Shown here piece by piece: positions 9,490-29,974 of a DNA stretch of 34,348 bases (positions within the stretch are counted from its first letter, which is position 1; the number at the start of each line of letters is the position of its first letter). The position numbers were made by a program, and so were the translations under genes. The stretch is from an uncultured Oscillospiraceae bacterium. GTDB lineage: Bacteria; Bacillota; Clostridia; Oscillospirales; Oscillospiraceae. The stretch is from positions 1 to 34,348 of the forward strand of contig CANPWM010000020.1 in assembly GCA_947584295.1 (NCBI GenBank), written 5' to 3'. The notes under the pieces are model-generated. The model saw nothing but the letters and a program-made list of their open reading frames with translations. It was not told the DNA's origin and did no database searches.

Positions 9490-10155
9490 GTGAAACTGCT
9501 TTTACGCCGCGCCTTCCGCGCCGCCCTCCGGGAGAGGGTGGACGAGGCGGCCCTTGCCGCCGCGCTTTCGTCCTTCCGGGAGGCGTGCCTTCTGGAAAAA
9601 GAGGCGGGGGCGCTGAATACCGCCTCCGTCTTTCGTTACCGCAAGCTTCTGTTTGCCTACCTGGAGCTTACGCCGGAGCGGCCGGAGGACGCCTGCCCCC
9701 AGGCCCCGCTGGCCCTGCTGGCCCCCTTTTTGAAGCCCTGGCCCGCCCTTGACGGCCCCGACCGGCCCTTCGTCCCCATGACCCCGGTTTTCTGGCACGA
9801 CCAGCCCACCTATGCCCGGGAGTATGTCCGCGCCCAGCCCCCGGAGGGGCGGTGCGGCCGGATCGCCCTGCTGCGGCCTGAAAAGCTCATGAGCTACGTC
9901 ACCTACCACCAGGCCCTGGTGCGGGAGGGCCTTCTGGTGGGGGATCGCCGCCAGTTCATCTCCCTCCACGAGAACGGCCTCTTCTCCTACTTCGAGACGC
10001 CCCGGGACCGGGAGCAGGTTAACATAAAACGATCCAATGAACCGTCCCGCGTCCTGGCCCAGTGGCTCGCCGCCGACCCGGACAGCCACTTTATCCGCTT
10101 CCCGGAATCCCCCCGGGAGAATTTTCACATCATCGAGACCGTCGTCTCCGCGTGA
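9490..10155 (+). CDS. Hypothetical protein, 221 residues, beside a Gfo/Idh/MocA oxidoreductase
   Basis: I do not recognise this family. The start is GTG 9490, with AAGGGGGA eight bases upstream. The protein has no signal peptide or membrane segment. The N-terminal 60 residues are Ala/Leu/Arg-rich and probably helical (FRAALRERVDEAALAAAL). The C-terminal half has a denser mix of aromatic and charged residues (PVFWHDQPTYAREYV, SYVTYHQALVREGLL, HENGLFSYFETPR, HFIRFPESPRENFHII) and looks like a globular domain. It ends 9 bases before the oxidoreductase start, so the two are co-transcribed and probably share a pathway, perhaps sugar or polyol metabolism, by association only. Codon use matches its neighbours. 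Confidence 0.85.
   Translation: MKLLLRRAFRAALRERVDEAALAAALSSFREACLLEKEAGALNTASVFRYRKLLFAYLELTPERPEDACPQAPLALLAPFLKPWPALDGPDRPFVPMTPVFWHDQPTYAREYVRAQPPEGRCGRIALLRPEKLMSYVTYHQALVREGLLVGDRRQFISLHENGLFSYFETPRDREQVNIKRSNEPSRVLAQWLAADPDSHFIRFPESPRENFHIIETVVSA
10018..10027 (+). repeat. Variant copy of the 10-mer (GTTAACATAA)
   Basis: It differs by one base from GTTGACATAA, has the same leading G and trailing AAC as the exact copy at 21731, and lies inside the 221-residue gene. Confidence 0.55.
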
Positions 10156-10164
10156 GGTGCGTAT

Positions 10165-11228
10165 ATGAAAAAATTGACGTTTTCCGTAATAGGTTCCGGC
10201 TGGCGGGCGGAATTTTACGCCCGGATCGCCGCCGCTCACCCGGATCGCTTCAGGCTCTCCCATATCCTCTGCCGTGGGGAGGAGAAGGCTGCCGCTATCC
10301 GCCAAAAGGGCTTCCCCGCCACCACAGATGAAGTTGACATAATCTCTGCAAAGCCCGATTTTGTTGTCGTCGCCGTGTCCAAGGGGGCAAACTTCGCCGT
10401 GACCTGCCATTGGTTGGCCCTGGGCTTTTCCGTGCTGGCGGAGACGCCCGCCGGTTGCTCCTTCGAGGAGCTGTGCGCCCTCTGGGAGCTCAGCCAAAGG
10501 GGGGCGCGGCTGGCCGTTGCGGAGCAGTACTTCCGCTATCCCCTCATCGCCGCCGGACTGCGCCAGGTTCGCGCCGGGTGGATAGGGGAGGCGCACAGCG
10601 TCACGCTCTCCCTGTGCCACGACTACCACGCCGCGTCGGTGATTCGCCAGATGCTGGGAATGGACAGCGGCCCCCTCCGGGACTTCACCGTGACGGCCTC
10701 TGTCCGGGACTACCCCGTGGAGCGCACCGATTCCCGCTTCGGCCCCGTCACCGACGGGGAGATCGTCCAGAGCGGCCGGGTCACGGCGGATTTTGTCTTT
10801 GACAACGGCAAGCGGGCGTTTTACGATTTTGACGGGATCCAGTACCACACCCGTATCCGCGCGCGGCATATCGACCTGCGGGGCCAGCGCGGACAGTGGT
10901 ACGACACCACAATTCTCTATTCCGACGAGACGCACACCCCCCGCAGGATCAGGCTCACGCCGCGCCTGTCCCCGGCTTTGAGGCGCTGGCGACGCCGGAG
11001 CTGGCGGAGCTTGCGGAGGCGTGGGATCCCTTCGTCCACATGGAGAACGCCCAGGACGAGTACGCCATCGCCACGCTGATGGACGGCATGGAGGCGTTCA
11101 TCGCCGGGGGAGCGGAGCCGTACCCCCTCCGGGAAGCCCTGGAGGACGCCTATACCTGGCTGATGATGGGAAGCTCCATCGACGCCCACGCCCCCGTCAC
11201 CAGCGCCCCGCGCCCCTGGCAGGCCTGA
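10165..11228 (+). pseudogene. Gfo/Idh/MocA-family NAD(P)-dependent oxidoreductase, frameshifted
   Basis: The N-terminal part has the Rossmann glycine motif (SVIGSGWRAEF, residues 7-17) and the body of the sugar/inositol dehydrogenase family. The ATG-initiated frame goes out of register after about residue 258 and runs into an Arg/Ser-rich tail ending at 11079. The expected C terminus (AIATLMDGMEAFIAGG..., then LREALEDAYTWLMM) continues in the -1 frame to a stop at 11228. The break maps to a run of six C at 10937-10942; one more C would restore a protein of about 355 residues, normal for the family. The catalytic EKP motif reads ETP (Glu93-Thr94-Pro95), so lysine is missing there too. Either this is a decaying gene or a base is missing in the assembly. 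Confidence 0.82.
10333..10342 (+). repeat. 10-mer GTTGACATAA, copy 1
   Basis: Exact copy inside the oxidoreductase gene, read as Val-Asp-Ile with the rare codons GTT and ATA. Confidence 0.8.
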
Positions 11229-11272
11229 CGGCCCGTCGAAGGTTGCGGCTCCGCCGCGTATTGAAAAATGTC

Positions 11273-11715
11273 GGGCCGCCAAGAGAGGCGGCCCCTACAA
11301 CATATGGGAAAGCTTTTCGTAAATTCGCGGGCGGGTTTTGAACCTGCCCCTACGGTTTTTAAGGGAAATTTATGCGTTTTTTTCGCATAATCTTTCGTCA
11401 ATGGCCGTACGGGCCGCCGCCCACGGCGGCCCACCGTATTCCTGGAAAACTATCCCACAAATTGTAGGGGCCGCCTCTCCAGGCGGCCCGCCGTCATACG
11501 CAACAATTTCCGATAATGATTTCGTTTTCTCCCAACGCACAATCTGCCCGTACGGGCCGGACACCTGGCCGGCCCGCCTATCGAATTATGATTTCGCCCA
11601 TCGAATTCCCGAATATTAAATTTAATCGCCGTACGGGCCGCCGCCCACGGCGGCCCACCGAATTCCCGAAAAATCTTCCCATAACCGCCGTAGGGGCCGC
11701 CTCTCCAGGCGGCCC
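11273..11715. repeat. Cluster A of GC-rich palindromic units in a gene-free gap
   Basis: The gap 11229-11722 has no credible gene. It holds six units of the form GTA(C/G)-GGGCCGCC-N6-GGCGGCCC, or the reverse, at 11273-11298, 11407-11432, 11464-11489, 11550-11575 (stem GGGCCGG/CCGGCCC), 11631-11656 and 11690-11715. A diverged seventh at 11329-11353 has stem GGGCgGGTT/AACCtGCCC. Six-base loops are AAGAGA, GCCCAC (twice) and TCTCCA (twice). AT-rich spacers of 30-55 bases often carry AATTCCCG. The last unit ends 7 bases from the kinase stop codon. Short frames across these units are by-products of the repeat. Confidence 0.9.
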
Positions 11716-11722
11716 CCCGCTT

Positions 11723-12751
11723 TTACGTCTCCACGACGACATCCGCCGCGGGGAACACGCCGCACGCCTCAAAATAGCGGTTCTCCAGCGGGATCCAGCG
11801 GTTGACATAATCATCAAACCGCTCCGGGTTCCGGGCCTTCAACCTGCCAAGCTGCGTCTTGGCGTCGGTGCGCAGGGCCAGCTTCAGGGTGTAGTGATCC
11901 CGCAGCGCCGGGTGGAGGCAGTAGGAGCCCTCCACGATGTTGACCCGGCGGGAGTCGTGCGTTACGGGCGGCTCCAGCGCCATCTTCCCGCAGTCAAACC
12001 GCCGGGTGACGGCCCTTTCGCCCCGCTCCAGGGGCAGCAGGATCTCCTCCAAAAGCCGCTCCCGGTGCATATTTCCCCCCGGCTCCGAAAGCCTCTGGGC
12101 CGTGCGGAGGCTGGCGGGCAGGAAGTAGTCGTCGGCATGGAATAGGTTCCCGCCGTACACCTCCGCCAAGGCGGCCCCCAGGGTGGATTTCCCGGCGGCG
12201 CACATGCCGTCGATGCCGACCATCACCGGCCCTTCAAGGCGGGCGAGGCGATCCACGGCGGAGTAGACGTCCATATACCGGGCGTACTCCCGGCTGATGA
12301 CCCGGTAGGCCGGGCTGTTGGCGGCCCGGTACGTCTCCGAGTGGGACAGCATGGGGTACCCCCGGGCGGCGTACTCGGCCAGAAAGGCGTCCACCTCCGC
12401 CGCCGGATAGGGGAGCTTATATAAAAGCGCCAGCTTTTCCCGGAAGCCCTCCAGACTTCCGGCGGGCCTCCGGGCGGAGAGGAAAAAGAGCTGAAAGAGC
12501 GTCTCCACCGTGAGCCTGCCCGCCGCCGGGGCCAGATTCACCCGGCAGAAGCCGCCGCCGATGGGGGAGACCAGCGGCCCGCCGCCGGGGGGACACGTCT
12601 CCATCTCCCGGCGCAGGCACTCCAGGGCCGCGCCGGGGTCGTCTATCAGATGCCCGCCGCCAAACTCGCTCTGGTAGAGGAGCTTCGCCCCGTCCCGGAG
12701 CTGAAACCCCGGCCGTTGCGCCTCCTTAAAGAGCAGGTCAAAAAGCTCCAT
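11723..12751 (-). CDS. P-loop uridine-kinase-like protein with N-terminal extension
   Basis: This 342-residue protein (ATG at 12751) has a C-terminal half typical of the uridine kinase/phosphoribulokinase-like P-loop family: Walker A GMCAAGKST (about residues 181-189), then FHADDYFLP, which matches the substrate-binding DDFY-like motif of uridine kinases, and VEGSYCLHP, typical of the same family. The N-terminal 170 residues (LLYQSEFGGGHLIDDP, CRVNLAPAAG) are not a domain I can name; similar fusions are usually labelled uridine kinase. The substrate is unknown. The longer frame to 12802 would overlap the upstream gene, whereas ATG 12751 starts two bases after its TGA, implying coupling. A copy of the GTTGACATAA motif lies near the C terminus. 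Confidence 0.85.
   Translation of the reverse strand: MELFDLLFKEAQRPGFQLRDGAKLLYQSEFGGGHLIDDPGAALECLRREMETCPPGGGPLVSPIGGGFCRVNLAPAAGRLTVETLFQLFFLSARRPAGSLEGFREKLALLYKLPYPAAEVDAFLAEYAARGYPMLSHSETYRAANSPAYRVISREYARYMDVYSAVDRLARLEGPVMVGIDGMCAAGKSTLGAALAEVYGGNLFHADDYFLPASLRTAQRLSEPGGNMHRERLLEEILLPLERGERAVTRRFDCGKMALEPPVTHDSRRVNIVEGSYCLHPALRDHYTLKLALRTDAKTQLGRLKARNPERFDDYVNRWIPLENRYFEACGVFPAADVVVET
11801..11810 (+). repeat. 10-mer GTTGACATAA, copy 2
   Basis: Exact copy on the plus strand within the minus-strand kinase gene, where it encodes part of Asp-Tyr-Val-Asn-Arg. Confidence 0.8.
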
Positions 12752-12753
12752 GC

Positions 12754-12975
12754 TCACCACTCCCGCTTGATGTCGCTCTCCCGGACGCCATAGGTCTCGC
12801 AAAACTCCCGGAGATCCTTATCCCCGCGGATCAGCATGACCTCGGTGAACTTGCCCGTGACGGGATCCTTCAGCCCCGCCACCTGCTCGCCGGTGCAGAT
12901 ACTGGCCCTGATGGTGGGGATCCTGCCGGCCATATCAAAGCGCGGCTCCCGCTTTTTTCTGTGGAATAACGGCAT
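12754..12975 (-). CDS. Small conserved hypothetical protein, 73 residues
   Basis: The protein starts with a basic MPLFHRKKREPRFD and continues as a compact sequence (GRIPTIRASICTGEQVAGL, GKFTEVMLIRGDKDLREFCETYG). This pattern recurs, to my knowledge, in small Clostridia proteins of unknown role that are sometimes mislabelled as enzymes. No catalytic motif or membrane segment is seen; the single Cys-Thr-Gly near residue 27 is suggestive only. AAGGAGA is well placed upstream of the ATG. It lies between the helicase (36-base gap) and the kinase-like gene (two-base gap) in a minus-strand operon. Confidence 0.85.
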   Translation of the reverse strand: MPLFHRKKREPRFDMAGRIPTIRASICTGEQVAGLKDPVTGKFTEVMLIRGDKDLREFCETYGVRESDIKREW

Positions 12976-13011
12976 GGGATCGTCTCCTTTTAGGTGACGC
13001 GGCCCGCCACC

Positions 13012-15273
13012 TTATTTTTTCCGCCGCCTCCGCTGGGGCTGGTTCTGGCTGCGCATACGGCGGAAGCAGTCGTCGCAGATGCGGCTTTTCTGATAGATGC
13101 TCAGGGGCTTGCCGCAGATGGCGCAGAAGCGGATATTGTTTTTCAGACGCGTCAGCAGAATATCGTTGATCTGCTCGGCCACGTCCTCCCGGGTCTCAAA
13201 GAGCTTGTCCTCGTCCACCGGCAGGTCAAAGGCCTTGCTGAAGGAGAAGTAGAGATCCAGCTTCTTGTAGTAAAGCTCCAGCTCCAGCAAGGTGGGATCC
13301 TCCGTGGCCAGCCCCGGCTGCTCGATCTCCTCGCCCATGCGGTAGCGCCGCAGCAGGGTGAAAAACAGCTCCCTCAGCGGCTCCGAAGTCTCGTCAAAGG
13401 GAATATTGGCGGCCCGCAGCTCCTGCTCTTTGCTGAGATCAAACCCCAGCTCCCGGAGCTTGGATATGATGGTGATATACCGGGAGATGTCCAGCTTCAC
13501 ATACGGCTCCACGGTGGGGAGCTTGTTCCACTCGGTCAGCACTTCCAAAAGGTCAAAATCCACCTGCAAGACCATGTCGGAAAAGCCCACCACGGCCTTC
13601 TCAATGGGGGGTACCGGGGCCTCCAGCCCCGCCTTGATGAAGGGCAGGTTCTGGGTCGCGCCCACAAAGCCCCGGTTATACATGCCAAAGCGCCCGGCCC
13701 GGCCCGCGATCTGCTTGATCTCCTCCGGCAGAAGCGCCCGGCGCTCGGTGCCGTCGAACTTCTCCGTCTCCATGAAGATGATCCGCCGGATCGGCAGGTT
13801 GAGGCCCATGCCGATGGCGTCGGTGGAGACCACATACTTCATGTCGCCCCGCAAAAAGCCCTCCATCTGCCGCCGCCGGGTGGCGTAGGGCAGAGCGCCG
13901 TAGATGATGGCCGGCTCCTTGCCGTGGGAGCGCAGCTCCTCGGCCACGCTGAGTACGCCCACCTTGGAGAAGGTGATAAGGGCGTCCCCCGGCTGGATGC
14001 GCTCGGGGGAGACGGTGGTGCGCATGGGGATCAGGGGGACGCGCCGCTCGTGCTTTATCACCGTGTAGGTGTCGCCGCAGCTGGCGATGAGCCGGATCAA
14101 AATATCCTCCGCCTCCGGGGCGGCGCACAGGTGTACCTCCGGGGCCAGCACCCCCAGAATGGCCCGGGTCCAGGCGTAGCCCCGCTGGGGATCCCGGATC
14201 ATCTGGCACTCGTCGATAACGGCCACGTCAAAGGGCCGCTTCAGATCCAGCTTCTCCGCCGTGGCGGCCACGTGGGTGTCCCCGGGGCGGGAGTCCTCCT
14301 CCTCGCCGGTGGCCAGGGAGCAGTCCACCCGTGCGTCCAGCAGCGTCTCCTGGGCCTCCAGGGCCAGAAGGCGCAGCGGCCCCAGATACACCCCCGTGGG
14401 GGCCTCCATCAGCCGCACAAGCCCGGCGTAGGTCTTGCCGGTGTTGGTGCCGCCGATGTGCAGGATAAAATGCCGCCGCATGGCCCGGGCCTCGGGGTAC
14501 TCGTCCCGGGGGTTCAGGGCCATCAGCAGGGAGAGGGAGCTTCGTATGGCCCGGGGGACGTACCACACCGACCACACCTTGGCAAGCCCGTCCCGGAACA
14601 GAAGCCCCAGAGGGAGATCCGGGGAGCGGAGCATATCGAAAAGGCTCTCCTCCGACTGTACCCCGTGGAGCTGCTCGATGACGTGTCCGGCGGCGACCTT
14701 GAGAATGTTGGGGTAATGCTCGATGACCTTGTCGCAGGGCCGCTCGTCCCAGTGGGCGCCGATATAGCCGCAGGACTTTGTCAGGCCGCTCATGGCCGGC
14801 GGCACGCAGGTGGCGGGGCGGCCCTTCTCCAGCGCCAGAAACTCTCCCAGCCAGGAGCTTACCTGCCCGTAGGACGGCTCCTGCCCGTTGGAACCCAGCC
14901 GCACCAAAATGGCCCGGTGGTAGTGCCGCGCCAGCAGGCTGGCGGCGGACTCGTCCCAGGGATATTTGGCGAAGGACCCCTCAAATAGCGCCCGCACCCC
15001 GGCGGTGTCCAGGGCCTTCTTCACCCGGGGAGCGGCCTCCCCCTGGGCCGTCGGGGCGGTCTCCGCCTCCGGCGCCACGATCCGGCGCTTGTCCATGAAC
15101 TCCGGCGTCTGCTCCGCCTCCGTCACGGCGCTCTTCCGCCAGGTGCGCAGTACCTTGCGGCCGTCCCCTATATGCACATAGGTAGGCTTGGGCAGAAGCG
15201 TCTCGATAAGCTCGTTGGTCCACCCCCGCCGCAGGAGGGCGCTTTTCGTCATGGAATTTTTGCTCTTGGACAC
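13012..15273 (-). CDS. SUV3-like DExH-box helicase with C-terminal zinc-binding motif
   Basis: This 753-residue SF2 helicase has motif I GGTNTGKT (about residue 275), DECQM as the DExH motif (about 354), GMGLNLPIRRIIF and QIAGRAGR (about 522). GGTNTGKT, DECQM and the overall order match the SUV3 family of RNA helicases (known from mitochondria, with bacterial relatives) better than RecQ or DEAD-box proteins. The C-terminal 40 residues hold C-x2-C-x14-C-x2-C (CAICG...CDDC), a probable zinc ribbon, then a basic tail QRRRRKK. About 240 N-terminal residues lack a recognisable motif. An RNA remodelling or decay role is inferred. The start is GTG 15273, preceded by AAGGGGG at 9 bases; ATG 15252 is possible but lacks a ribosome binding site. 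Confidence 0.88.
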   Translation of the reverse strand: MSKSKNSMTKSALLRRGWTNELIETLLPKPTYVHIGDGRKVLRTWRKSAVTEAEQTPEFMDKRRIVAPEAETAPTAQGEAAPRVKKALDTAGVRALFEGSFAKYPWDESAASLLARHYHRAILVRLGSNGQEPSYGQVSSWLGEFLALEKGRPATCVPPAMSGLTKSCGYIGAHWDERPCDKVIEHYPNILKVAAGHVIEQLHGVQSEESLFDMLRSPDLPLGLLFRDGLAKVWSVWYVPRAIRSSLSLLMALNPRDEYPEARAMRRHFILHIGGTNTGKTYAGLVRLMEAPTGVYLGPLRLLALEAQETLLDARVDCSLATGEEEDSRPGDTHVAATAEKLDLKRPFDVAVIDECQMIRDPQRGYAWTRAILGVLAPEVHLCAAPEAEDILIRLIASCGDTYTVIKHERRVPLIPMRTTVSPERIQPGDALITFSKVGVLSVAEELRSHGKEPAIIYGALPYATRRRQMEGFLRGDMKYVVSTDAIGMGLNLPIRRIIFMETEKFDGTERRALLPEEIKQIAGRAGRFGMYNRGFVGATQNLPFIKAGLEAPVPPIEKAVVGFSDMVLQVDFDLLEVLTEWNKLPTVEPYVKLDISRYITIISKLRELGFDLSKEQELRAANIPFDETSEPLRELFFTLLRRYRMGEEIEQPGLATEDPTLLELELYYKKLDLYFSFSKAFDLPVDEDKLFETREDVAEQINDILLTRLKNNIRFCAICGKPLSIYQKSRICDDCFRRMRSQNQPQRRRRKK

Positions 15274-15333
15274 CGGCGCCCGCCCCCTTTTTCACGTTGC
15301 TAAAAAATAAATAAAAAAATTTAAAAATAATGC

Positions 15334-15362
15334 TTGACAAATAAAAACCCTTGTAGTATAAT
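15334..15362 (+). promoter_or_regulatory. Consensus sigma-A promoter with no sense gene downstream
   Basis: TTGACA (15334-15339), a 17-base spacer and TATAAT (15357-15362) lie in a very AT-rich gap. Both hexamers and the spacer match consensus. Transcription would run rightward, antisense to the ymdB-like gene that ends at 15390. No plausible plus-strand gene follows. Confidence 0.7.
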
Positions 15363-15389
15363 GCGAATTATCCGAAAGCAAAAAGGGCC

Positions 15390-18358: not shown

Positions 18359-18389
18359 ACTATTTTTACCTCTGCTTCAGATTTTATTT

Positions 18390-19549: not shown

Positions 19550-20836
19550 GAGGACATTTCCCCAAAGCGTCCCATTGGAAAGGCCGGTGATTTGTGTATT
19601 TGCCACAGTGTTGCGCAGGGCCGCGCCCCGGACGCGCACCTGGCAGTAGTTCCCGGCGTGGCCCGTCCACACGCCGTCCCGCTCCGTCTCAAAGAGGACG
19701 GGGAGGACTCTGCCCACCTGCGCCTCCAGGAACCGGCGCTTCATCTGGCGGGCAACAGCGGCGGCCTCCCGGGCGCGGCGCTCCTTGACGGCCCGGGGGA
19801 GCTGCTCCATACCGGCGGCGGCGGTGCCGGGGCGGAGGGAGTAGGGGAAGACGTGCATGGAGGAGAAGGCACACTTCTCGATAAAGGCCAGGGTCTCCCG
19901 GTGGTCGGCCTCCGTCTCGCCGGGGAAGCCGGTGATAAGGTCGGCGGTGAGGCCGCAGTTGTCAAAATACCGCCGCAGGAGGGCGACGGACTCGTAGAAC
20001 CGGGCGCTGTCGTACTTCCGGCGCATGGCCAGGAGCGTCCTGTCACAGCCGCTTTGCAGGGACAGGTGGAAGTGGGGGCAGAGGTTGGGCAGGGCGGCCA
20101 GGGCGCGGCAGAAGTCCTCCGTCACCACCCGGGGTTCCAGGGAACCCAGGCGTATACGGCAGTCCGGCGCGGCCCCGGCTACGGCCAGCACGGCGTCGGT
20201 GAGGGTGGGCCTCCCCGGCAGATCGGCCCCGTAGGAGGCGATCTCGATGCCGGTGAGGACGATCTCCCGGTAGCCCTCCCGGGCAAGCCCCGCCGCCTCC
20301 GCCGCGCATTTTTCCAACGGCAGGGAGCGCACACGGCCCCGAGTATACGGTATGACGCAGTAGGAGCAGAAGTTCACGCACCCGTCCTCGATCTTCAACA
20401 GGGCCCGCGTCCTGCCCTCCGGGCTTCCGGCGGGGAGGATCTCAAATGCCCGCCGCTCCAGGGCGTTGTCCACACGGGCGCAGGGCGTTCTCTCCGCCAG
20501 GGCCCGCTCCAGGGCCTCCACAAAGCCTGCCTTATCGCCGCTGCCAAAGACCACGTCGCCTAACGCCGAGGCCGCCTTGGCCTCGGCCTGGCTCCAACAG
20601 CCGCAGACGGCCATCACCGCGCCGGGGTTCAGCTCCCGGAAATGGCGCACGGCCTGGCGGGACTTGCGCCCCGCCTCCGCCGTGACGGCGCAGGTGTTGA
20701 CGATGACGGCGTCCAGGCCCGTCTCCTCCGCCGTGACCTGGTGGCCCCGCTGGGAGAGCATGGTCTCCAGGGCGGCGGACTCAAATTGGTTGACCTTACA
20801 GCCAAGGGTGTGGATATGTATTCTCATAATGCTCAT
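19544..20836 (-). CDS. mtaB: tRNA (t6A37)-methylthiotransferase MtaB
   Basis: MtaB is a radical-SAM enzyme that adds a methylthio group to t6A at position 37 of ANN-decoding tRNAs. It has the N-terminal MTTase cysteines (HTLGCKVNQFES, NTCAVT, VCGCW), the radical SAM cluster motif C-x3-C-x2-C in CVNFCSYCVIPYTRG, and a C-terminal TRAM-like segment ending GLSNGTLWGNVLL. I chose ATG 20836 (MSIMRIHIHTLGCKV, 430 residues) because AGGA is about 10 bases upstream; ATG 20827 is the alternative. The frame stays open upstream to 21043, but that is divergent promoter DNA and the neighbouring gene. Confidence 0.94.
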   Translation of the reverse strand: MSIMRIHIHTLGCKVNQFESAALETMLSQRGHQVTAEETGLDAVIVNTCAVTAEAGRKSRQAVRHFRELNPGAVMAVCGCWSQAEAKAASALGDVVFGSGDKAGFVEALERALAERTPCARVDNALERRAFEILPAGSPEGRTRALLKIEDGCVNFCSYCVIPYTRGRVRSLPLEKCAAEAAGLAREGYREIVLTGIEIASYGADLPGRPTLTDAVLAVAGAAPDCRIRLGSLEPRVVTEDFCRALAALPNLCPHFHLSLQSGCDRTLLAMRRKYDSARFYESVALLRRYFDNCGLTADLITGFPGETEADHRETLAFIEKCAFSSMHVFPYSLRPGTAAAGMEQLPRAVKERRAREAAAVARQMKRRFLEAQVGRVLPVLFETERDGVWTGHAGNYCQVRVRGAALRNTVANTQITGLSNGTLWGNVLL

Positions 20837-20843
20837 AATGCTC

Positions 20844-20872
20844 TTGTCCTGTACGGAAATTCGTTGTATAAT
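20844..20872 (+). promoter_or_regulatory. Promoter of the cysteine desulfurase operon
   Basis: TTGTCC (20844-20849), a 17-base spacer and TATAAT (20867-20872). Confidence 0.7.
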
Positions 20873-20887
20873 AGGGGACAATTCGGT

Positions 20888-20916
20888 ATTATAGCCCATC
20901 TGAAAGCTAAAATCAA
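20888..20916 (-). promoter_or_regulatory. Promoter of mtaB
   Basis: Minus-strand TTGATT (20911-20916), a 17-base spacer and TATAAT (20888-20893). It lies back to back with the plus-strand promoter, with the two transcripts overlapping at their 5' ends. Confidence 0.7.
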
Positions 20917-20935
20917 GTTGAATGAGGATCAAACC

Positions 20936-22072
20936 ATGACTGTTTATTTTGATAACGCCGCCACCACGCGCCCCTGTCCCGAGGCGGTGGAGGCCGTGAC
21001 GCGGGCGATGACGGAGGACTACGGCAACCCCTCCTCCGGCCACGGCCCGGGCCGCCGTGCCGCCGCCGCCTTAAAGGAGGCCCGGGAGGAGCTTGCCCGC
21101 GCCCTGGGCTGTGAAAGCGGCGAGGTGCTGTTCACCTCCGGCGGCACGGAGGGGGACAATCTGGCCCTGCGGGGCGCGGCGTACCTCCAGCGGCACCGCT
21201 GCCGCCATATCATCACCTCCCAGGCCGAGCATGACGCGGTGCGCAGGACCTGTCAGGCCCTCCAGAGCCAGGGGTATGACGTGACCTTTTTAAAGCCGGA
21301 CAGCACAGGGGCCGTAAGCGCGGGCCAGGTGCTGGAGGCCATGCGGGAGGACACGGGCCTTGTGTCCCTGATGCTGGTGAACAATGAGACAGGGGCGGTG
21401 ACCGACGTGGCCGGGATCGCGACGGCGGTAAGGGGGATCAATCCCCACACGCTGATCCACTCCGACTGCGTCCAGGCGCTTTTGAAGCTCCCCTTCACCC
21501 CCAAGAAGCTGGGGGCTGACCTTGTCACCGTCAGCGCCCACAAGATCCACGGCCCCAAGGGGGTGGGGGCGCTCTATGTGAGAAAGGGCCTGCGCCTCCC
21601 CGGCATCGTCACCGGCGGGGGGCAGGAGGGGGGCGTTCGCCCCGGCACCGAGCCGATGCCCGCCATTCTGGGCTTCGCCGCCGCCGCCCGGGCGGGGCGG
21701 GCGTCCTTTGCGGAGGACGCGGCCCGCATGGTTGACATAAAACAATACCTTATGGACAATCTGGCCGCCCAGCTCCCCGGCGTGCGCTTTATCGGGGACA
21801 GTCGCGCCCCGCATATTCTCAGTATCTCCCTGCCGGGGTATAAAAGCGAGGTGCTGATGAACCTTTTGGACGCCAAGGGCATCTGCGTCTCCAAATCCTC
21901 CGCCTGCAAGAAGGGGGCCAGAAGCCACGTGCTGGAGGCCATGGGGGAGAGCGCGGAGACCATCGACGGGGCCATCAGGATAAGTCTGTCCCGGTACTCC
22001 ACCCCGGAGGAGGCGGACTACTTTATCCGCGAGCTGAAGGCGGCGGAGTCGCTGCGGGTGAAGATAAGATGA
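20936..22072 (+). CDS. Cysteine desulfurase (NifS/IscS-like)
   Basis: This PLP enzyme takes sulfur from cysteine as a persulfide for Fe-S clusters and thio-modified tRNA. The 378-residue protein starts VYFDNAATTRPCPEAV, has the PLP lysine in SAHKIHGPKG (Lys203) and the catalytic cysteine in SSACKKG (Cys324). The SSACxxG loop puts it nearer to the NifS/IscS branch than SufS. ATG 20936 has GAGGA upstream; the frame is open further 5' but only through promoter DNA. Next to mtaB it may supply sulfur for tRNA modification, which is inference. The stop overlaps the next gene's ATGATG. Confidence 0.95.
   Translation: MTVYFDNAATTRPCPEAVEAVTRAMTEDYGNPSSGHGPGRRAAAALKEAREELARALGCESGEVLFTSGGTEGDNLALRGAAYLQRHRCRHIITSQAEHDAVRRTCQALQSQGYDVTFLKPDSTGAVSAGQVLEAMREDTGLVSLMLVNNETGAVTDVAGIATAVRGINPHTLIHSDCVQALLKLPFTPKKLGADLVTVSAHKIHGPKGVGALYVRKGLRLPGIVTGGGQEGGVRPGTEPMPAILGFAAAARAGRASFAEDAARMVDIKQYLMDNLAAQLPGVRFIGDSRAPHILSISLPGYKSEVLMNLLDAKGICVSKSSACKKGARSHVLEAMGESAETIDGAIRISLSRYSTPEEADYFIRELKAAESLRVKIR
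21731..21740 (+). repeat. 10-mer GTTGACATAA, copy 3
   Basis: Exact copy in the cysteine desulfurase gene, read as Val-Asp-Ile (residues 266-268) in a surface-variable part of the family. Confidence 0.8.
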
Positions 22073-22740: not shown

Positions 22741-22879
22741 AAGGTTGGAAACGGATTAGCACAGGAGGGCGCTGAGACATAGGGATCGGGATCGCGGTCT
22801 GCAGGCTCAAGGGCGTGGGGAAAAGAACGCTGGGAAGGGCGCTGGTCAGCAGGCTAATGTGGAAGCGGTCATAAAATGG

Positions 22880-22908
22880 TTGCAATTATGAAGGCGATGG
22901 GGTATAAT
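22880..22908 (+). promoter_or_regulatory. Promoter of the HAD/AlaX operon
   Basis: TTGCAA (22880-22885), a 17-base spacer and TATAAT (22903-22908). The preceding stretch 22741-22879 contains nothing I can name. Confidence 0.78.
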
Positions 22909-22938
22909 GCGGATTAACCCATTATTTTGGTGGGAAAT

Positions 22939-23691
22939 ATGGTGGACAAGATGATAAAAGCTTTGATATTCGATCTGGACAACACGCTTTTGCGCTCTGA
23001 CAAGAGCCTGTCCGCCTACTCCCGGGGCGTTTTGGCGCGGTGCCGGGAGCGGGGGATCCGGGTGCTGGCGGCTTCGGCAAGGCCTGAACGGACGGTGCGG
23101 GAGTTTGGGATATTGGGGGAATTTGAGGCCCTGGTGACCCTGAACGGCGCGCGGGTGCTGTCCCGGGGCCGGGAGCTGGTGAACGCGATCCCCCGGGAGA
23201 GCGGGGAGCGGATCGCGGCGGGGCTTCTGCCCCTGCCGGGGGCGGTGGTCAGCGTGGAGATGAGCGGCGGCATATTCGCCTCCGCCCCGATCCCGGAGTG
23301 GAACGCCCGGGTGTTCGGGGGCTTTCCCGGACTGCCGGAGGGGACGCTCTACAAGGTGCTGGTCAGCGGCGTCACGGAAAAGGAGGCCCGGGCGGCCCTG
23401 ACGGGGGATACATACTGCACCGCCATCGAGGGCGGGAAGCTCTATCAGTTCATGAGCCGGGAGGCCACCAAATGGAACGGCGTCCGGGAGATGCTGGCGG
23501 ATTTCGGCCTGGAGCCGGAGGCGTGCGCCTTCTTCGGGGACGACTGGGACGATATCCAGTGCGTGAAAAACTGCGGCCTGGGGGTGGCTATGGAGAACGC
23601 TATCCCGGAGGTGAAGGCCGCGGCGGACGCCATCGCGGGCCCCTGCGACGGGGACGGCGCCGCCAGATATGTGGAGGAGAACATCTTATGA
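22939..23691 (+). CDS. HAD-superfamily (Cof/IIB-type) hydrolase
   Basis: A 250-residue predicted phosphatase. Motif I is FDLDNTLL, with the nucleophile Asp followed by the acid Asp. Motif II is the Ser in LAASARPERT, where Cof-type proteins have (T/S)GR. Lys in the SREATKWNGV segment matches motif III, and FFGDDWDDIQ is motif IV. The cap between residues 85 and 180 is of the C2 type. Substrates of this group are usually sugar phosphates or nucleotides and cannot be told from sequence. I chose ATG 22939 (MVDKMIKALIF); an upstream TTG at 22927 and ATG 22951 are possible. The stop overlaps the next ATG (ATGA). Confidence 0.9.
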   Translation: MVDKMIKALIFDLDNTLLRSDKSLSAYSRGVLARCRERGIRVLAASARPERTVREFGILGEFEALVTLNGARVLSRGRELVNAIPRESGERIAAGLLPLPGAVVSVEMSGGIFASAPIPEWNARVFGGFPGLPEGTLYKVLVSGVTEKEARAALTGDTYCTAIEGGKLYQFMSREATKWNGVREMLADFGLEPEACAFFGDDWDDIQCVKNCGLGVAMENAIPEVKAAADAIAGPCDGDGAARYVEENIL

Positions 23692-24830
23692 CACGAAAGC
23701 TCTATTATGAGGACGCGCATATCCGGGCGTTTGACGCGGCGGTTCTCTCCTGCGGGGAGCGGGACGGGGCCTTTGAGGTGATTCTGGACAAAACGGCCTT
23801 TTTCCCCGAGGGCGGGGGCAATCCGGCGGACACGGGGACGCTGGGAAACGCCCGCGTCCTCCACACCCTGGAGCGGGGGAGCCAGGTCGTCCACCGATGC
23901 GACGCGCCCCTGGAGCCGGGGACGGCGGTACACGGGGAGATCGACTGGGAAAAGCGGTTTTCCCATATGCAAAACCACACCGCCGAGCATATCGTCTCCG
24001 GCCTTGTCCACCGGCGGCACGGGTATGACAACGTGGGCTTCCACATGGGGGCCGAGGGGGTCATCGTGGACTTCGACGGGTTTGTGGACGACGGGGAGCT
24101 GGCGGACATCGAGCGGGAGGCCAACGAGGCCGTCTGGCGCGATGTGCCGGTCACCCAGAGCTTCCCCGCGCCGGAGGAGCTGCCGGGGCTATCCTATCGC
24201 AGTAAGCTGGCCCTTACGGAGAACGTGCGCCTGGTGACCATCGAGGGCGTGGACGTGTGCGCCTGCTGCGCGCCCCATGTGAAGCGCACCGGGGAGATCG
24301 GCGTTATCAAGATCTTTGAGTCCATCCGCCGCAAAAACGGCGTGCGGATCCGTATGCTGGCGGGGGAGCGGGCCTATGAGGACTACCGCAAGCGGGCCGG
24401 GAGCGCCGCCGCCGTTTCGGCGCTGCTGTCCGTACCCCAGGACGATGTGGCGGCGGCGGTGCGGCGGCTGCTGGACGAGCGGGAGAGCCTCGCCTATAAG
24501 CTGGGCGGGCTTAAGCGGAAGATGATCCGGCAGGAGGTTGACATAATCAAAGGAACGCCGGGGAATCTGGTGTTTTTCGAGGAAGATTTCGACGTGAAGG
24601 AGCTGCAGCTGCTCGCCAACGCCGCCAGGGAGAAGTGCGCGGTGGCCGCCGCCTTCTCCGGGGACGACGGGACGGGGTACAGATACGTCCTGGCCGCCGG
24701 GACCACCGACCTGCGCCCGGTGGTCAAGGCCATGAACGAGGCCCTTCAGGGGCGGGGCGGCGGCAGGCCGGAGCTGGCCACCGGGACGGTGAGGGCCAGC
24801 CGGGCGGAGATAGAGAAATATTTTATGTAA
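23688..24830 (+). CDS. Alanyl-tRNA editing protein, AlaX-L type, with DHHA1 domain
   Basis: Free-standing homologue of the AlaRS editing domain that hydrolyses mischarged Ser-tRNA(Ala). The 380-residue length and architecture (N-terminal OB-like barrel, editing core, C-terminal DHHA1-like domain) indicate the long type. Zinc ligands are H97-x3-H101 in NHTAEH and Cys193-x3-His197 in CACCAPH. FFPEGGGNPADTG (38-50) is the conserved first motif. A coiled stretch around residues 250-285 precedes PGNLVFFEEDFD and the DHHA1 part. It overlaps the HAD gene by four bases. A GTTGACATAA copy encodes Val-Asp-Ile at the boundary of coiled coil and DHHA1. Confidence 0.93.
   Translation: MTRKLYYEDAHIRAFDAAVLSCGERDGAFEVILDKTAFFPEGGGNPADTGTLGNARVLHTLERGSQVVHRCDAPLEPGTAVHGEIDWEKRFSHMQNHTAEHIVSGLVHRRHGYDNVGFHMGAEGVIVDFDGFVDDGELADIEREANEAVWRDVPVTQSFPAPEELPGLSYRSKLALTENVRLVTIEGVDVCACCAPHVKRTGEIGVIKIFESIRRKNGVRIRMLAGERAYEDYRKRAGSAAAVSALLSVPQDDVAAAVRRLLDERESLAYKLGGLKRKMIRQEVDIIKGTPGNLVFFEEDFDVKELQLLANAAREKCAVAAAFSGDDGTGYRYVLAAGTTDLRPVVKAMNEALQGRGGGRPELATGTVRASRAEIEKYFM
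24537..24546 (+). repeat. 10-mer GTTGACATAA, copy 4
   Basis: Exact copy (preceded by G) in the AlaX gene at an interdomain junction. Confidence 0.8.
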
Positions 24831-24861
24831 ACCTGTTCCCGTATGGAGCGGGGTATGCGGC

Positions 24862-24887
24862 GGGCCGCCAAGAGAGGCGGCCCCTAC
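24862..24887 (+). repeat. Solitary GC-rich palindromic unit (B)
   Basis: GGGCCGCC, loop AAGAGA, GGCGGCCC then CTAC, 31 bases after the alaX-like stop. Same subfamily as 11273-11298. Confidence 0.88.
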
Positions 24888-24928
24888 GGCGCTGTTTGAC
24901 GGATCATGCAAGAATAAGGAGGTTCCCC

Positions 24929-25570: not shown

Positions 25571-25573
25571 GGT

Positions 25574-26029
25574 ATGGACAGGACGGAAAAGGTGATCTTC
25601 ACCAACATGTGCATGATCGAGGACGGCGCGGGAAACGTGCTGATCCAGGATCGGGTGGATCCCGACTGGCCCGGCGCCGCCTTTCCCGGCGGCCATGTGG
25701 AGAGAGGGGAATCCTTCACCGACGCGGTCATCAGGGAGGTCCGGGAGGAGACGGGCCTTACCGTCTCGCACCTTACGCTGTGCGGCATCAAGGACTGGAC
25801 GCGGGAGGACGGCACGCGGTACGCGGTGCTTTTATATAGGACAAGCCGGTTTTCCGGCAGTCTCGTCTCCTCCGACGAGGGAGAGGTACGTTGGGTACCC
25901 CTCCGGGAGCTTACGTCCATGCGGCTTGCCGACGGCATGGAGACGATGCTGAGGCTCTTTCTGGAGGACGGGCTTTCCGAGCAGTTTTTCTACCGGGAGG
26001 ACGGCCGGTGGGTGGAGCTATTGAAATAG
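25574..26029 (+). CDS. NUDIX hydrolase (MutT/8-oxo-dGTPase-like)
   Basis: A 151-residue protein with a complete NUDIX box at residues 40-62: G40-x5-E46-x7-REVREETGL, with all metal-binding Glu present. The sequence before it (CMIEDGAGNVLIQDR) and WPGAAFPGGHVE match the 8-oxo-dGTP diphosphatase-like subgroup common in Firmicutes, but the true nucleoside-diphosphate substrate cannot be read from sequence. It starts three bases after the GyrI-like gene. Confidence 0.92.
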   Translation: MDRTEKVIFTNMCMIEDGAGNVLIQDRVDPDWPGAAFPGGHVERGESFTDAVIREVREETGLTVSHLTLCGIKDWTREDGTRYAVLLYRTSRFSGSLVSSDEGEVRWVPLRELTSMRLADGMETMLRLFLEDGLSEQFFYREDGRWVELLK

Positions 26030-26043
26030 CATATCATTGAGAG

Positions 26044-26053
26044 GTTGACATAA
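26044..26053 (+). repeat. 10-mer GTTGACATAA, copy 5, in the metF leader
   Basis: Exact copy, preceded by G, ending one base before the metF ATG at 26055. It is the only exact copy outside a coding region and sits between the GAGAGG ribosome binding site and the start codon. Confidence 0.8.
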
Positions 26054-26054
26054 T

Positions 26055-26918
26055 ATGTATATTCGAGAACTTTACAGGGCAAAGAAGCTGCCGGTGTCCT
26101 ATGAGATCTTCCCGCCCAAGGGGGAACTGCGGGTGGAGGAGCTGCGGGGGACGCTGGAGGCGCTGGCGGGGACGGAGCCGGATTTTATCTCCGTCACCTG
26201 CTCCGCCGGAGGCTCCGGGAACGGCAAAAATACGGCGGCGCTGACGGGGATCATCGAGCGGGAGTATGGCATTCCGGCGGTGGCCCATGTGACGTGCGTA
26301 AACTCCACCAGGGCCAATGTGGACGGGGCCATCGAGGACATCAGGAGCCAGGGGATCTCCAACGTCTTTGCCCTCCGGGGGGACAAGCTGCCGGGGAGCG
26401 AGACGCGGGATTTTTGCTACGGCGCGCAGCTTGTACGGTATCTGCGGGAGCGCACGGACTTTTGCGTGGGCGGCGGGTGCTACCCGGAGGGACACGTGGA
26501 GTGCGACGATTTTGACGAGGACATACGGCACCTTCGGGAGAAGCAGGACGCAGGGGCGGAGTTTTTCCTAAGCCAGCTTTTCTTTGAGAACACCGCGTTT
26601 TATCGCTTTATCGACAGGGCCAGGGCGGCGGGGATATCCGTCCCCATCGACGCCGGGATCATGCCCATCATGGGCAAGAGCCAGATCACCCGCATGGTCT
26701 TTATGTGCGGGGCCAGCCTGCCCTCAGCGGTGGTGCGCATGGTGAACCGATATGAGAACGACCCGGCCTCCCTGCTGAAAGCCGGTATGGAGTACGCCGC
26801 CAGACAGATCGTGGAGCTGGCGGAGAGCGGCGCGGCCAGCGGGATCCATATCTACACCATGAATAAGCCCGAGGTGGCTAAGTTTGAGCGGGGGGCGCTG
26901 CGCGATGCCGGCTTCTGA
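26055..26918 (+). CDS. metF: Methylenetetrahydrofolate reductase
   Basis: MetF reduces 5,10-methylene-THF to 5-methyl-THF, the methyl donor for MetH. The 287-residue TIM-barrel protein has the early signature VSYEIFPPKGE, then FISVTCSAGGS, HVTCVNSTRANVD, NVFALRGDKL and the FLSQLFFENTAFYRF segment, all typical. It begins a three-gene unit (metF, MetH activation protein, metH) with overlaps. The only recognisable ribosome binding site is GAGAGG about 10 bases upstream; the GTTGACATAA copy fills the spacer. No SAM or cobalamin riboswitch fits in the 25-base gap before it. Confidence 0.95.
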   Translation: MYIRELYRAKKLPVSYEIFPPKGELRVEELRGTLEALAGTEPDFISVTCSAGGSGNGKNTAALTGIIEREYGIPAVAHVTCVNSTRANVDGAIEDIRSQGISNVFALRGDKLPGSETRDFCYGAQLVRYLRERTDFCVGGGCYPEGHVECDDFDEDIRHLREKQDAGAEFFLSQLFFENTAFYRFIDRARAAGISVPIDAGIMPIMGKSQITRMVFMCGASLPSAVVRMVNRYENDPASLLKAGMEYAARQIVELAESGAASGIHIYTMNKPEVAKFERGALRDAGF

Positions 26919-27597
26919 GTTTGCCCTGGAAAAAAGCGAGGTCCTGCGGTATCTGGGCTACCGGGGCCAGGAGCTGGGGCCGGAGCTGGAGGGGCTTATC
27001 GACGAGATGTGCCAAAGGTGCCTTGAGAGCGCCAGGCCCCGGTATTACTGGCGGGCCTTTCCCCTGACGGCGGGGGAGCGGGGACAGCCGGAGCTTGCCG
27101 GGACGGGGGTCGTCCTGGAGGGGCGGGACATCAAAAAGCACCTGGATCGGGGGACGGCCTGCGCGGTCATGGCGGCCACCCTGGGGCTGGAGCCGGAGCG
27201 GGAGATGCTGCGGATCGGCCGCCGCTCCACCACCGGGGAGGTGGTGTTCAACGCCGCGTGTACGGCGCTTATCGAGAGCGTGGCGGACGTGTGCGAGGGG
27301 GAGATCAGGGCATACGCCAGGAGGGCGGGGCTTGATACCGGCTACCGATACAGCCCGGGGTACGGGGACTTCCCCCTGGAACAGCAGGAGGCGGTGCTGG
27401 GGGTCATCGAGGCGGGAACCAGGCTGGGGATCACCCTGACGGACTCGCTGCTGATGGTGCCGAAAAAGAGCGTTTCGGCGCTGATCGGCCTCTATCCCGC
27501 CGGGGAGGGGATCCGCCGGGGCGGCTCCACCTGCGAGACCTGCGAAAACTATGAAAACTGTCAGTTCAGAAAGGAGGGCTTCGGCTGTGGCGGATAA
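26905..27597 (+). CDS. Methionine synthase B12-dependent activation (reactivation) domain protein
   Basis: The 230-residue protein corresponds to the C-terminal activation domain of classical MetH, which binds SAM to remethylate oxidised cobalamin; here it is a separate polypeptide, as in many Clostridia. Recognisable segments are AVMAATLGLEPE, the TGEVVFNAACTALIES helix, and RYSPGYGDFPLEQQ, which matches the SAM-site RxxxGYgd region. The C terminus adds four cysteines (C-x2-C-x5-C-x8-C in CETCENYENCQF...CGG), a possible metal or Fe-S site. ATG 26905 overlaps the metF 3' end by 14 bases; the gene overlaps metH by 11 bases. Confidence 0.92.
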   Translation: MPASEFALEKSEVLRYLGYRGQELGPELEGLIDEMCQRCLESARPRYYWRAFPLTAGERGQPELAGTGVVLEGRDIKKHLDRGTACAVMAATLGLEPEREMLRIGRRSTTGEVVFNAACTALIESVADVCEGEIRAYARRAGLDTGYRYSPGYGDFPLEQQEAVLGVIEAGTRLGITLTDSLLMVPKKSVSALIGLYPAGEGIRRGGSTCETCENYENCQFRKEGFGCGG

Positions 27598-29974
27598 GGG
27601 TTTTATTCTCCTGGACGGGGCCATGGGGACGGAGCTGCAAAAGCGGGGCCTGAAAACAGGCGCTCTGCCGGAGCTGCTCAACCTGACCGATCCCGCCGTG
27701 GTGCGGGCGGTGCATGAGGATTATGTAAACGCCGGGGCGGATATCATCACCGCCAACACCTTTGGGGCCAACGCCCGGAAGCTGGGGAGCGCCCAGCGGG
27801 TGCGGGAGGTCGTCGCCGCCGGGATACGGCTTGCCCGGGAGGCGGGGGCCAGGCGCGTGGCGCTGGATCTGGGCCCCACCGGGGCCATGCTGGCCCCCAT
27901 GGGCACCATGAGCTTTGAGGAGGCCTACGGGCTTTTCAAGGAGCAGGTCGCGGCGGGCGTGGAGGCCGGGGCGGATCTGGCGCTCATCGAGACCATGTCG
28001 GATCTGTTGGAGGCCAAGGCGGCGCTTTTGGCGGTGAAGGAGAACTCGCGGCTGCCGGTGTATGTGACCATGACCTTTGACCGGGACGGCAGGACGTTTT
28101 TGGGGACAAGCCCCGCCATCGCGGCGGTGACGCTGTCGGCCCTGGGGGCGGACGCGGTGGGCATCAACTGCTCCTTAGGGCCGGAGGAGATCGTACCCTT
28201 CGCCCGGGAGATGCTGGCGTGGGCGACTGTGCCGGTGGTCGTCCAGCCCAACGCGGGCCTTCCCGACGCCACCTCCGGCCAGACGGTGTACCCCGTGGGG
28301 CCGGAGGCGTTCGCCCGGAGCGTGGGGCAGATGCTGGACGCGGGGGTGACCATCGCCGGAGGGTGCTGCGGCACCACCCCGGAGCATATAAGGCTCCTGC
28401 GGGCGGAGATGGACAGGCGCGCGCCGGTGGAGCGGGCGGTCAGGCACCGCACCGTCTTTACCAGCGCCCAGAGGCTGGTCTGCCCGGAGGGGGGCATCGC
28501 CGTCATCGGCGAGCGCATCAACCCCACCGGGAAAAAGAAGATCAAGGAGGCCCTGCGCAGCCAGTGCTTCGACCATATCCTCAATGAAGCCATCAGCCAG
28601 GAGGAGGCCGGGGCGGAGCTTTTGGACGTGAACGCGGGCCTGCCGGAGATCGACGAGCCGGGGACGCTGACAAGGCTTGTGACGGCGTTGCAGGCGGTGA
28701 CGCCCCTGCCGCTGCAGATCGACAGCTCCGACCCGGAGGCCGTGGACAGGGCCTGCCGGGTGTACGCCGGGAAGCCCATCATCAACTCCGTCAACGGCAA
28801 GGAGGAGAGCCTGCGGGCTATCCTGCCCCTGGCCAAAAAGTACGGCGCGGCGGTGGTGGGCCTGACCTTGGATGAGGAGGGGATCCCCGACAGGGCGGAG
28901 GATCGGCTGAAGATCGCGGAGAAGATCGTCCGCTGGGCCGCCGAGTACGGGATCCCCCGGGAGGACGTTCTCATCGACTGCCTGACCATGGCGGTGTCCA
29001 CCAACCAGAGGCTGGCGGGGGAGACCCTGCGGGCCGTCCGGCTGGTGACGGAGAAGCTGGGGGCCGGTACGGTGCTGGGCGTCAGCAATATCTCCTTCGG
29101 CCTGCCCGCCAGGGAGCTGCTGAACGCCACCTTCCTGGCTAACGCCCTGGCGGCGGGACTGACGCTGCCGATCTTAAACCCGCTGTCCCAGCGGTATATG
29201 GACGTGGTGGCCGCCTGGCGCGTCCTCAACGGCCAGGACAGAGACGCGGGCCGGTATATAGAAAGTTATGTCAACAAGACGGTGACATATCAAAGTTATG
29301 TTAACAAAAGGGCCAACGACGCCCCAGCAACTGCTGATGTTATGTCTACCGATAAGGAGGTTGACATAACGCAAATCGTCCTGTCGGGGCGGAAGATGTT
29401 CATCGAGGACGCGGTACGCAGGGCCCTGGAGGAGAGGCCGCCCATGGAGGTCATCAATGAGTTGCTGATCCCCGCCATCAACGCCGCCGGGGATCGGTTT
29501 GAGAAGGGGCAGTTTTTCCTGCCGCAGCTGATGGCCTCGGCGGAGACGGTGAAGCTGGGCTTTGACGTGATCCGGGACAGGGCCAAAACCGGGGAGGTCG
29601 TGAGCAAGGGGAAGATCCTGCTGGCTACGGTGAAGGGCGATATCCACGATATCGGGAAGAACATCGTGAAGATGCTCCTGTCCAACTACGGCTATGAGAT
29701 CGTCGATCTGGGCCGGGACGTGGATCCCGACACGGTGGTGGAGGCGACCCTGCGGGAGAACATAAAGCTGGTGGGCTTGTCGGCGCTGATGACCACTACC
29801 GTCAAGGCCATGGCGGAGACCATCGAGAAGCTCCGCAAGGCCGGGGCGGACTGCAAGATCATGGTGGGGGGCGCTGTGCTGAACCCGGAGTACGCCAGGC
29901 TTGTGGGCGCGGATTTTTACGCCAGGGACGCCCAGGAGTCGGCCAGGATCGCCGCAGGGATCTTTGGACAGTGA
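27587..29974 (+). CDS. metH: B12-dependent methionine synthase, without activation domain
   Basis: MetH moves a methyl group from methyl-THF through cobalamin to homocysteine. The 795-residue form has the homocysteine-binding barrel (LLDGAMGTELQ at the N terminus; zinc Cys in GINCSLGPE near 195 and GGCCGTT near 258), the pterin-binding barrel (IGERINPTGKKK near 307, LDVNAG, DSSDPEA), the B12 cap and the B12-binding domain with GDIHDIGKN (His about 687). The activation domain is encoded by the preceding gene. GTG 27587 has AAGGAGGG at 27571-27578, an ideal spacing; the longer frame from 27551 lacks this. Residues about 559-594, between pterin and B12 modules, contain an unusual repeated segment (SYVNKTVTYQSYVNK). 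Confidence 0.96.
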   Translation: MADKGFILLDGAMGTELQKRGLKTGALPELLNLTDPAVVRAVHEDYVNAGADIITANTFGANARKLGSAQRVREVVAAGIRLAREAGARRVALDLGPTGAMLAPMGTMSFEEAYGLFKEQVAAGVEAGADLALIETMSDLLEAKAALLAVKENSRLPVYVTMTFDRDGRTFLGTSPAIAAVTLSALGADAVGINCSLGPEEIVPFAREMLAWATVPVVVQPNAGLPDATSGQTVYPVGPEAFARSVGQMLDAGVTIAGGCCGTTPEHIRLLRAEMDRRAPVERAVRHRTVFTSAQRLVCPEGGIAVIGERINPTGKKKIKEALRSQCFDHILNEAISQEEAGAELLDVNAGLPEIDEPGTLTRLVTALQAVTPLPLQIDSSDPEAVDRACRVYAGKPIINSVNGKEESLRAILPLAKKYGAAVVGLTLDEEGIPDRAEDRLKIAEKIVRWAAEYGIPREDVLIDCLTMAVSTNQRLAGETLRAVRLVTEKLGAGTVLGVSNISFGLPARELLNATFLANALAAGLTLPILNPLSQRYMDVVAAWRVLNGQDRDAGRYIESYVNKTVTYQSYVNKRANDAPATADVMSTDKEVDITQIVLSGRKMFIEDAVRRALEERPPMEVINELLIPAINAAGDRFEKGQFFLPQLMASAETVKLGFDVIRDRAKTGEVVSKGKILLATVKGDIHDIGKNIVKMLLSNYGYEIVDLGRDVDPDTVVEATLRENIKLVGLSALMTTTVKAMAETIEKLRKAGADCKIMVGGAVLNPEYARLVGADFYARDAQESARIAAGIFGQ
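29262..29369. repeat. Cluster of GTTGACATAA sites in the metH linker
   Basis: Exact copies lie at 29266-29275 (minus) and 29360-29369 (plus); variants lie at 29296-29305 (minus, GTTAACATAA) and 29340-29349 (minus, GTAGACATAA). A tandem duplication of 30 bases starts at 29262 and 29292. GTTATGTCTACC and GGTTGACATAAC at 29339-29370 form an inverted repeat of 12 bases with one mismatch and an 8-base loop. Confidence 0.82.

Follow-up and report, generated by a model that had tools for sequence, protein, structure and literature searches.

Putative XerD half-sites multiplied in the genomes of Oscillospiraceae, with a conserved tandem array upstream of xerD

Short sites that direct chromosome resolution and organisation at the replication terminus have been described in several bacteria, and the following statements reflect excerpts of the papers cited. 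The site dif has the sequence ACTTCCTAGAATATATATTATGTAAACT in Bacillus subtilis and CACGCCGATAATGCACATTATGTCAAGT in F. alni (PMC3025954), and in streptococci and lactococci the site difSL is linked to the recombinase gene xerS (PMC2731167, PMC5357621). In the terminus region of B. subtilis, SMC is unloaded by XerD at the XDS sites (Karaboja et al., 2021, via PMC10945525, PMC12322038, PMC8357415 and PMC9733580), whereas in Escherichia coli many copies of the short matS site, bound by MatP, keep an SMC complex off the terminus (PMC10945525). Here we analyse a stretch of 34,348 nucleotides (the window) from the draft genome of an uncultured Oscillospiraceae bacterium (GenBank assembly GCA_947584295.1, contig CANPWM010000020.1), in which a preliminary description, made from the sequence alone, had reported seven exact copies of the 10-base word GTTGACATAA. 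In our judgement the best explanation, and a quite probable one, is that the word forms XerD half-site arrays, which probably serve in SMC unloading or terminus marking, and that an array at xerD is probably autoregulatory. The word is tied to XerD by a tandem pair upstream of xerD, by the concentration of sites towards the terminus in one relative and partly in a second, though not in a third, and by sites in a metH-like gene.

The draft genome (2.35 Mb in 123 contigs, 94.8% complete) carries 15 forward and 13 reverse copies of the exact word. With one position freed, it contains 88 copies of GTTNACATAA as against seven of the reversed word, which was counted in the same way and served as the control; the free position is never C in these 88 copies. 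This genome-wide count, proposed in the preliminary description, shows that the enrichment reaches beyond the window. Judging from the 80 sites, out of 88, whose flanks lie in fetched loci, the conserved core is RGTTDACATAA (D is A, G or T), approximately 11 bp long with R present in 75%, and no dyad or inverted partner is conserved beside it. Read on the other strand, the XerD arm of B. subtilis dif is part of this core, and the arm of F. alni dif fits it except for one base. The word does have a described match, although the preliminary description knew of none. The draft genome encodes XerD (TIGR02225, 342.1 bits with a cut-off of 329.6), and its xerD gene sits directly behind a gene that we call spoIIM-like, as it belongs to no Pfam family and scores below the cut-off of TIGR02831. 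The word is likely to be a XerD half-site, and among the readings offered in the preliminary description, a protein-binding site linked to chromosome organisation appears to be the best one. A search for papers containing two or more of the six forms of the word brought up no description of it as a scattered site; of the papers listed, judged by title only, PMC2731167 alone concerns dif. We also considered the RDRM of Deinococcus and a generic −35 element, but dropped both because the word has no dyad and has copies inside genes. Nor does the word fit dif itself, which is 28 bp long (a XerC arm, 6 bp and an inverted XerD arm) and present once per chromosome, as opposed to 88 copies with no conserved inverted arm.

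The sites occur singly and in arrays, in coding as well as intergenic DNA. Within this genome 38 of the 88 have a neighbour within 150 bp, compared with 1.0 expected (500 simulations, maximum 10), and 21 of the 26 close spacings measure 14–39 bp from start to start. This clustering bears on the suggestion that the word is a DNA uptake sequence or another horizontally spread word. Such words typically exist as hundreds to thousands of dispersed copies; the present one is short, abundant and found in both orientations, as an uptake word would be, but it forms tandem arrays with set spacing and, both at xerD and in the metH-like gene, occupies positions common to diverged relatives, and its 88 copies per genome fall below the counts of known uptake words. 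We therefore consider this reading highly improbable. The strand bias reported for the window is real there but disappears genome-wide, both for the exact word (see above) and for GTTNACATAA (43 forward, 45 reverse), and the orientations are nearly balanced over 199 relatives as well (2997 versus 2944), which argues against a strand-skewed motif. Two further arrangements were seen in the draft genome. At L073:5780-5862 (contig C34) a terminator-like hairpin is flanked on both sides by sites, resulting in a longer inverted repeat, and at L074:2979-3081 (contig C37) an open reading frame (ORF) starts with MKTVYITQSGEVNITQDFAMKVNITSGQNHKVNIT and four copies of the word encode most of its N-terminus.

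The most conserved array lies upstream of xerD. Taken together, the 30 family loci with the best xerD scores contain 38 sites and no controls. We looked for tandem pairs (at most two mismatches, 4 or 5 bp between the members) up to ∼3 kb upstream of xerD, a reach that leaves some pairs far from the gene. Such pairs were found in 22 of the 28 usable loci among these 30 (exact in 12), in 42 of 54 usable loci from closer named relatives (exact in 23) and in two of 19 usable loci from more distant ones (exact in one), whereas a pair of reversed words was found in none of the 101 usable loci. The nearest named relatives, fetched by XerD (80 loci kept, among the matches listed), were mostly Oscillospiraceae (Oscillibacter, Flavonifractor, Pseudoflavonifractor and Intestinimonas), followed by other Clostridia and Paenibacillus, which would itself place the genome of the window in the Oscillospiraceae; loci with short upstream DNA or an unrecognised XerD motif were dropped (L112 and L128 of the family, three closer and four more distant named ones). 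The exact pair is also present in the genome of the window (L070) and in family genome G078 (L094). The consensus of 63 arrays, GTTtACATAA-ta.t-gTTtACATAA-tattTtg.cAtAAtt.acAAAA, is followed by TTGa and Tata.t in promoter spacing, resembling −35 and −10 boxes. The array comprises three direct repeats with a pitch of 14 and 13 bp, of which two are strong sites and the third is degenerate, and it lies ∼20 bp upstream of the −35 box. An extra exact site upstream of the pair is found in 13 of the 66 paired loci, at 113–126 bp in 12 of them (at 113–115 bp in nine) and at 241 bp in one; in the genome of the window the distance is 115 bp. Some relatives (L130, L136 and L138) carry in their xerD arrays the variant GTAGACATAA that is known from the window. 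We read the array as a likely XerD operator with a probable autoregulatory role, a new proposal that is open to experiment; a search of titles and the starts of abstracts returned no paper on XerD autoregulation among the matches listed.

Analysis of the positions along the origin–terminus axis showed a concentration of sites towards the terminus that is clear in G078, partial in G160 and absent in G098. In G078 (4.31 Mb in one contig, dnaA at 398), the quarter of the chromosome most distant from dnaA contains 24 of the 44 sites (p = 3e-5), or 21 of 40 when sites within 1 kb are merged (p = 2e-4), and the Rayleigh test gives p = 5e-4. The 380 kb fetched from this genome, from 2.02 Mb on, hold 14 sites and no controls; within them the sampled GC skew switches sign near 2.05 Mb, with the xerD array located at 2.085 Mb. 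By eye, the sites at 1.70–2.46 Mb follow no trend in orientation. In G160 (3.67 Mb, dnaA at 3.59 Mb), the terminus half holds 30 of 43 sites (p = 0.007) and the best 18% window holds 23, compared with a simulated maximum of 20. In the genome of the window, the 56-kb contig that carries xerD (C5) contains 12 sites versus 2.1 expected (P = 2e-6) and four clusters versus 1.3 (P = 0.045). Twenty of its open frames match the 380 kb of G078 above 38% identity, all within 2.058–2.089 Mb, a stretch that adjoins the GC-skew change; none of 22 window proteins has a match above 38% identity in the same 380 kb. The addA gene of the window was sought in six genomes and placed in five, in each case in the terminus half, ∼0.69–0.93 of the way from dnaA (with rounded lengths for G128 and G125); in G160 it falls within the dense site region and in G078 at 1.49 Mb.

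In each of the five complete or nearly complete family genomes that we looked at (G078, G098, G160, G128 and G125, the last in two contigs), the xerD gene itself occupies the terminus side, as opposed to the location near the origin given for xerD genes in the excerpt of PMC3025954. The gene lies within ∼40 kb of the sign change of the GC skew in G078 and, at 1.227 Mb, near a weak change at 1.22–1.30 Mb in G098. These locations would suit a recombinase-linked dif like that of difSL and xerS, with the array upstream of xerD acting as the dimer resolution site and all other copies as scattered half-sites, and no other dif turned up in the stretches scanned. The array, however, is made of direct repeats, and an inverted XerC arm 6 bp from the XerD arm was not found, so that we regard this possibility as quite unlikely.

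The word could also be an ordinary transcription factor operator, its arrays marking the promoters of a regulon and its likeness to the XerD arm being due to chance. Several arrays do lie upstream of genes, the best conserved one just ahead of a −35 box. However, nine of the 11 GTTDACATAA sites in the window are inside ORFs taken as genes, two of these ORFs being without a Pfam match, and the ten genes scanned in or near arrays have no common theme: they encode a RadA/KaiC-type ATPase, an amidase, a GHMP kinase, SpoIIR, a FolD-type protein, a carbon-nitrogen hydrolase, a C39-type peptidase, a GDSL lipase and two spoIIM-like proteins. Given, in addition, the terminus concentration in G078 and the fact that the most conserved array is the one at xerD, we find such an operator unlikely and favour the XerD half-site.

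Selection on the site appears to have left its mark on protein sequence. The metH-like gene of the window (27551–29974; Pfam domains S-methyl_trans, Pterin_bind and B12-binding) was found in all 34 genomes of the genus and fetched from 30 of them. These loci contain 76 sites in the gene, 48 of them in the linker region, plus three in the flanks, and no controls. Twenty loci, all with at least 74% protein identity to the window, have one or more sites within the gene, and the ten loci below 72% have none. The linker, which in the window includes one variant besides three GTTDACATAA sites, ranges from 50 to 73 residues among relatives and grows with the number of sites: in the 29 loci where it could be aligned (L176 was cut), the 11 long linkers (65–73 residues) contain 37 sites and the 18 short ones (50–53 residues) contain 11, while all ten site-free loci have a linker of 50–53 residues. 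Words in both orientations encode SYVN, VMST or IMST, and VDI, and relatives differ by whole words, which points to selection on the DNA. The linker offers a clear example of protein sequence apparently moulded and extended by a DNA site.

The statistics of the window agree with the claim of the preliminary description that the word is far above chance there: it has 12 matches with at most one mismatch versus 0.54 expected from dinucleotide shuffles (largest 4; none of 100 reached 12). All seven exact copies are where they had been reported, on the same strands, and five are preceded by G, as noted before. The one-mismatch copies at 10018, 29296 and 29340 were also correct, but the one given at 27722 starts at 27721 and a minus-strand copy at 24823 had been missed (Table 1). 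When 21 ORFs of the window were taken as genes, they contained nine GTTDACATAA copies compared with a mean of 0.23 and a maximum of 3 in 2000 synonymous-codon shuffles; the count is therefore not given by protein sequence and codon usage. Together with the words of the metH-like gene, this supports the earlier suggestion that selection seems to act on DNA rather than protein. In plus-strand genes, the four copies in sense orientation do read Val-Asp-Ile, as had been observed, but this is not a bias: the frame is forced, since the other two frames of sense GTTGACATAA give TGA or TAA. Among the 20 site-bearing contigs of known size the window is the densest, with 11 sites versus 1.29 expected (P = 1e-7) and seven site clusters versus 0.80 (P = 2e-5).

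Table 1. Copies of the word in the window and the metH-like linker
Feature	Position	Strand	Context
GTTAACATAA site	10018..10027	+	In-frame Val-Asn-Ile, ORF 9490-10155 (without Pfam match)
GTTGACATAA site	10333..10342	+	Inside oxidoreductase gene GFO_IDH_MocA, 10165-11079
GTTGACATAA site	11801..11810	+	Antisense to candidate minus-strand ORF 11723-12802 (without Pfam match)
GTTGACATAA site	21731..21740	+	Inside aminotransferase class V gene, 20642-22072
GTTGACATAA site	24537..24546	+	Inside AlaX-like gene (tRNA_SAD, DHHA1; 23298-24830)
GTTTACATAA site	24823..24832	-	Straddles end of AlaX-like ORF; absent from the preliminary description
GTTGACATAA site	26044..26053	+	Between NUDIX gene and metF, right before metF start codon (26055)
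GTTTACATAA site	27721..27730	-	metH-like gene, codon 57; site at same position in 9 of 30 genus loci
metH-like linker	29168..29369	+	From Pterin_bind (to residue 539) to B12-binding_2 (from residue 606)
GTTGACATAA site	29266..29275	-	metH-like interdomain linker
GTTAACATAA site	29296..29305	-	metH-like linker
GTAGACATAA variant	29340..29349	-	metH-like linker
GTTGACATAA site	29360..29369	+	End of metH-like linker

Elsewhere in the window, at 30230–30890, we noticed by eye imperfect repeats rich in GC (variants of GGCGGGCCGCC...GGAGAGGCGGCCC), which lie between a tRNA-like stretch and the next ORF.

The enrichment is widespread in the family. The 199 family genomes contain 5941 sites and 1596 controls, with more sites than controls in 175 genomes and fewer in 20. 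Among genomes that are at least 90% complete, the ratio of sites to controls is 3.83 in the 106 with a full-length XerD (E value of 1e-90 or better) versus 1.84 in the 23 without (p = 0.008). Eight genomes of the genera g44, g46 and g66, at least 98% complete and without XerD at E 1e-90, show no enrichment (67 sites, 103 controls); this pattern is a lead only, since other genera without detected XerD are enriched.

Several observations weigh against assigning the word to XerD and the terminus. Enrichment tracks the presence of XerD weakly: over all 199 genomes the ratio is 4.03 in the 146 with XerD versus 2.82 in the 53 without (p = 0.14), 13 of the 106 genomes with full-length XerD are little or not enriched, and some drafts that lack a detected XerD, from genera g65, g92 and g105, are enriched. 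In G160 the far quarter holds 15 of 43 sites, which is not significant (p = 0.10), and a skew switch is not clear in 20 sampled stretches. G098 (2.19 Mb), with 27 sites and 11 controls, shows no clustering and has 13 of the 27 in the terminus half; G125 and G128 contain few sites (nine and 11) and were left out of the terminus test. The contigs of the window's own genome can be placed on the origin–terminus axis by gene content only. Finally, a 28-bp dif was not found in the window or in the stretches fetched from its genome, G078, G160 and G098. The dif candidates that we considered were rejected: the window site at 26043 matches B. subtilis dif at 18 of 28 positions, which is not convincing, and a dyad at C1:43975 of the draft genome has a match with three mismatches in six of 59 other genomes versus five for the reversed control. 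Structural scans of the stretches fetched from this genome, G078, G160 and G098 yielded no dif candidate in common.

In the mechanism that we propose, XerD half-sites would have multiplied in this lineage without the XerC arm, both singly and as arrays. XerD-bound loci would then form on terminus-side DNA, unload the SMC condensin and mark the terminus, and XerD would sense its own level through the conserved array before the xerD operon. Given what is known from B. subtilis, it is plausible by analogy that these sites serve to unload SMC or to mark the terminus. More tentatively, and with some doubt on our part, the whole family may organise its terminus via XerD half-site arrays, with XerD titrated between these and its own operator array and with selection on DNA sites lengthening linkers. 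If so, the number of terminus sites would set both the level of XerD and SMC unloading, and the repeats SYVN, VMST and VDI in the linker of the metH-like protein would have been built by selection on DNA sites. As the half-site appears in multiplied form in a large clostridial family, it may become possible to read the organisation of the terminus in these bacteria from their sequences, and the array upstream of xerD turns XerD autoregulation into a testable idea.

Compared with the known systems, as far as the excerpts cited at the outset describe them, the putative sites of this family are closest to the XDS of B. subtilis: both consist of a XerD half-site outside a full dif, and in at least one relative the family sites favour the terminus side, with a concentration that is clear in one of the three genomes tested. 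What sets the family sites apart is that they number dozens of copies, many of them inside genes, and form tandem arrays, one of which, at xerD itself, is conserved (how many sites B. subtilis has, and of what form, lay outside this comparison). RGTTDACATAA shares with dif the XerD arm but lacks a XerC arm at 6 bp and exists in many copies rather than one. As in the case of difSL and xerS, a recombinase gene stands next to a site of its own type, whereas the xerD array of the family is built of direct repeats (the geometry of difSL was not compared). In contrast to KOPS/SRS-type skewed motifs, the sites have no leading-strand polarity in the genome of the window. They resemble MatP-matS in being many copies of a short site with a proposed role in removing SMC at the terminus, a role that would here be played by another protein at another site.

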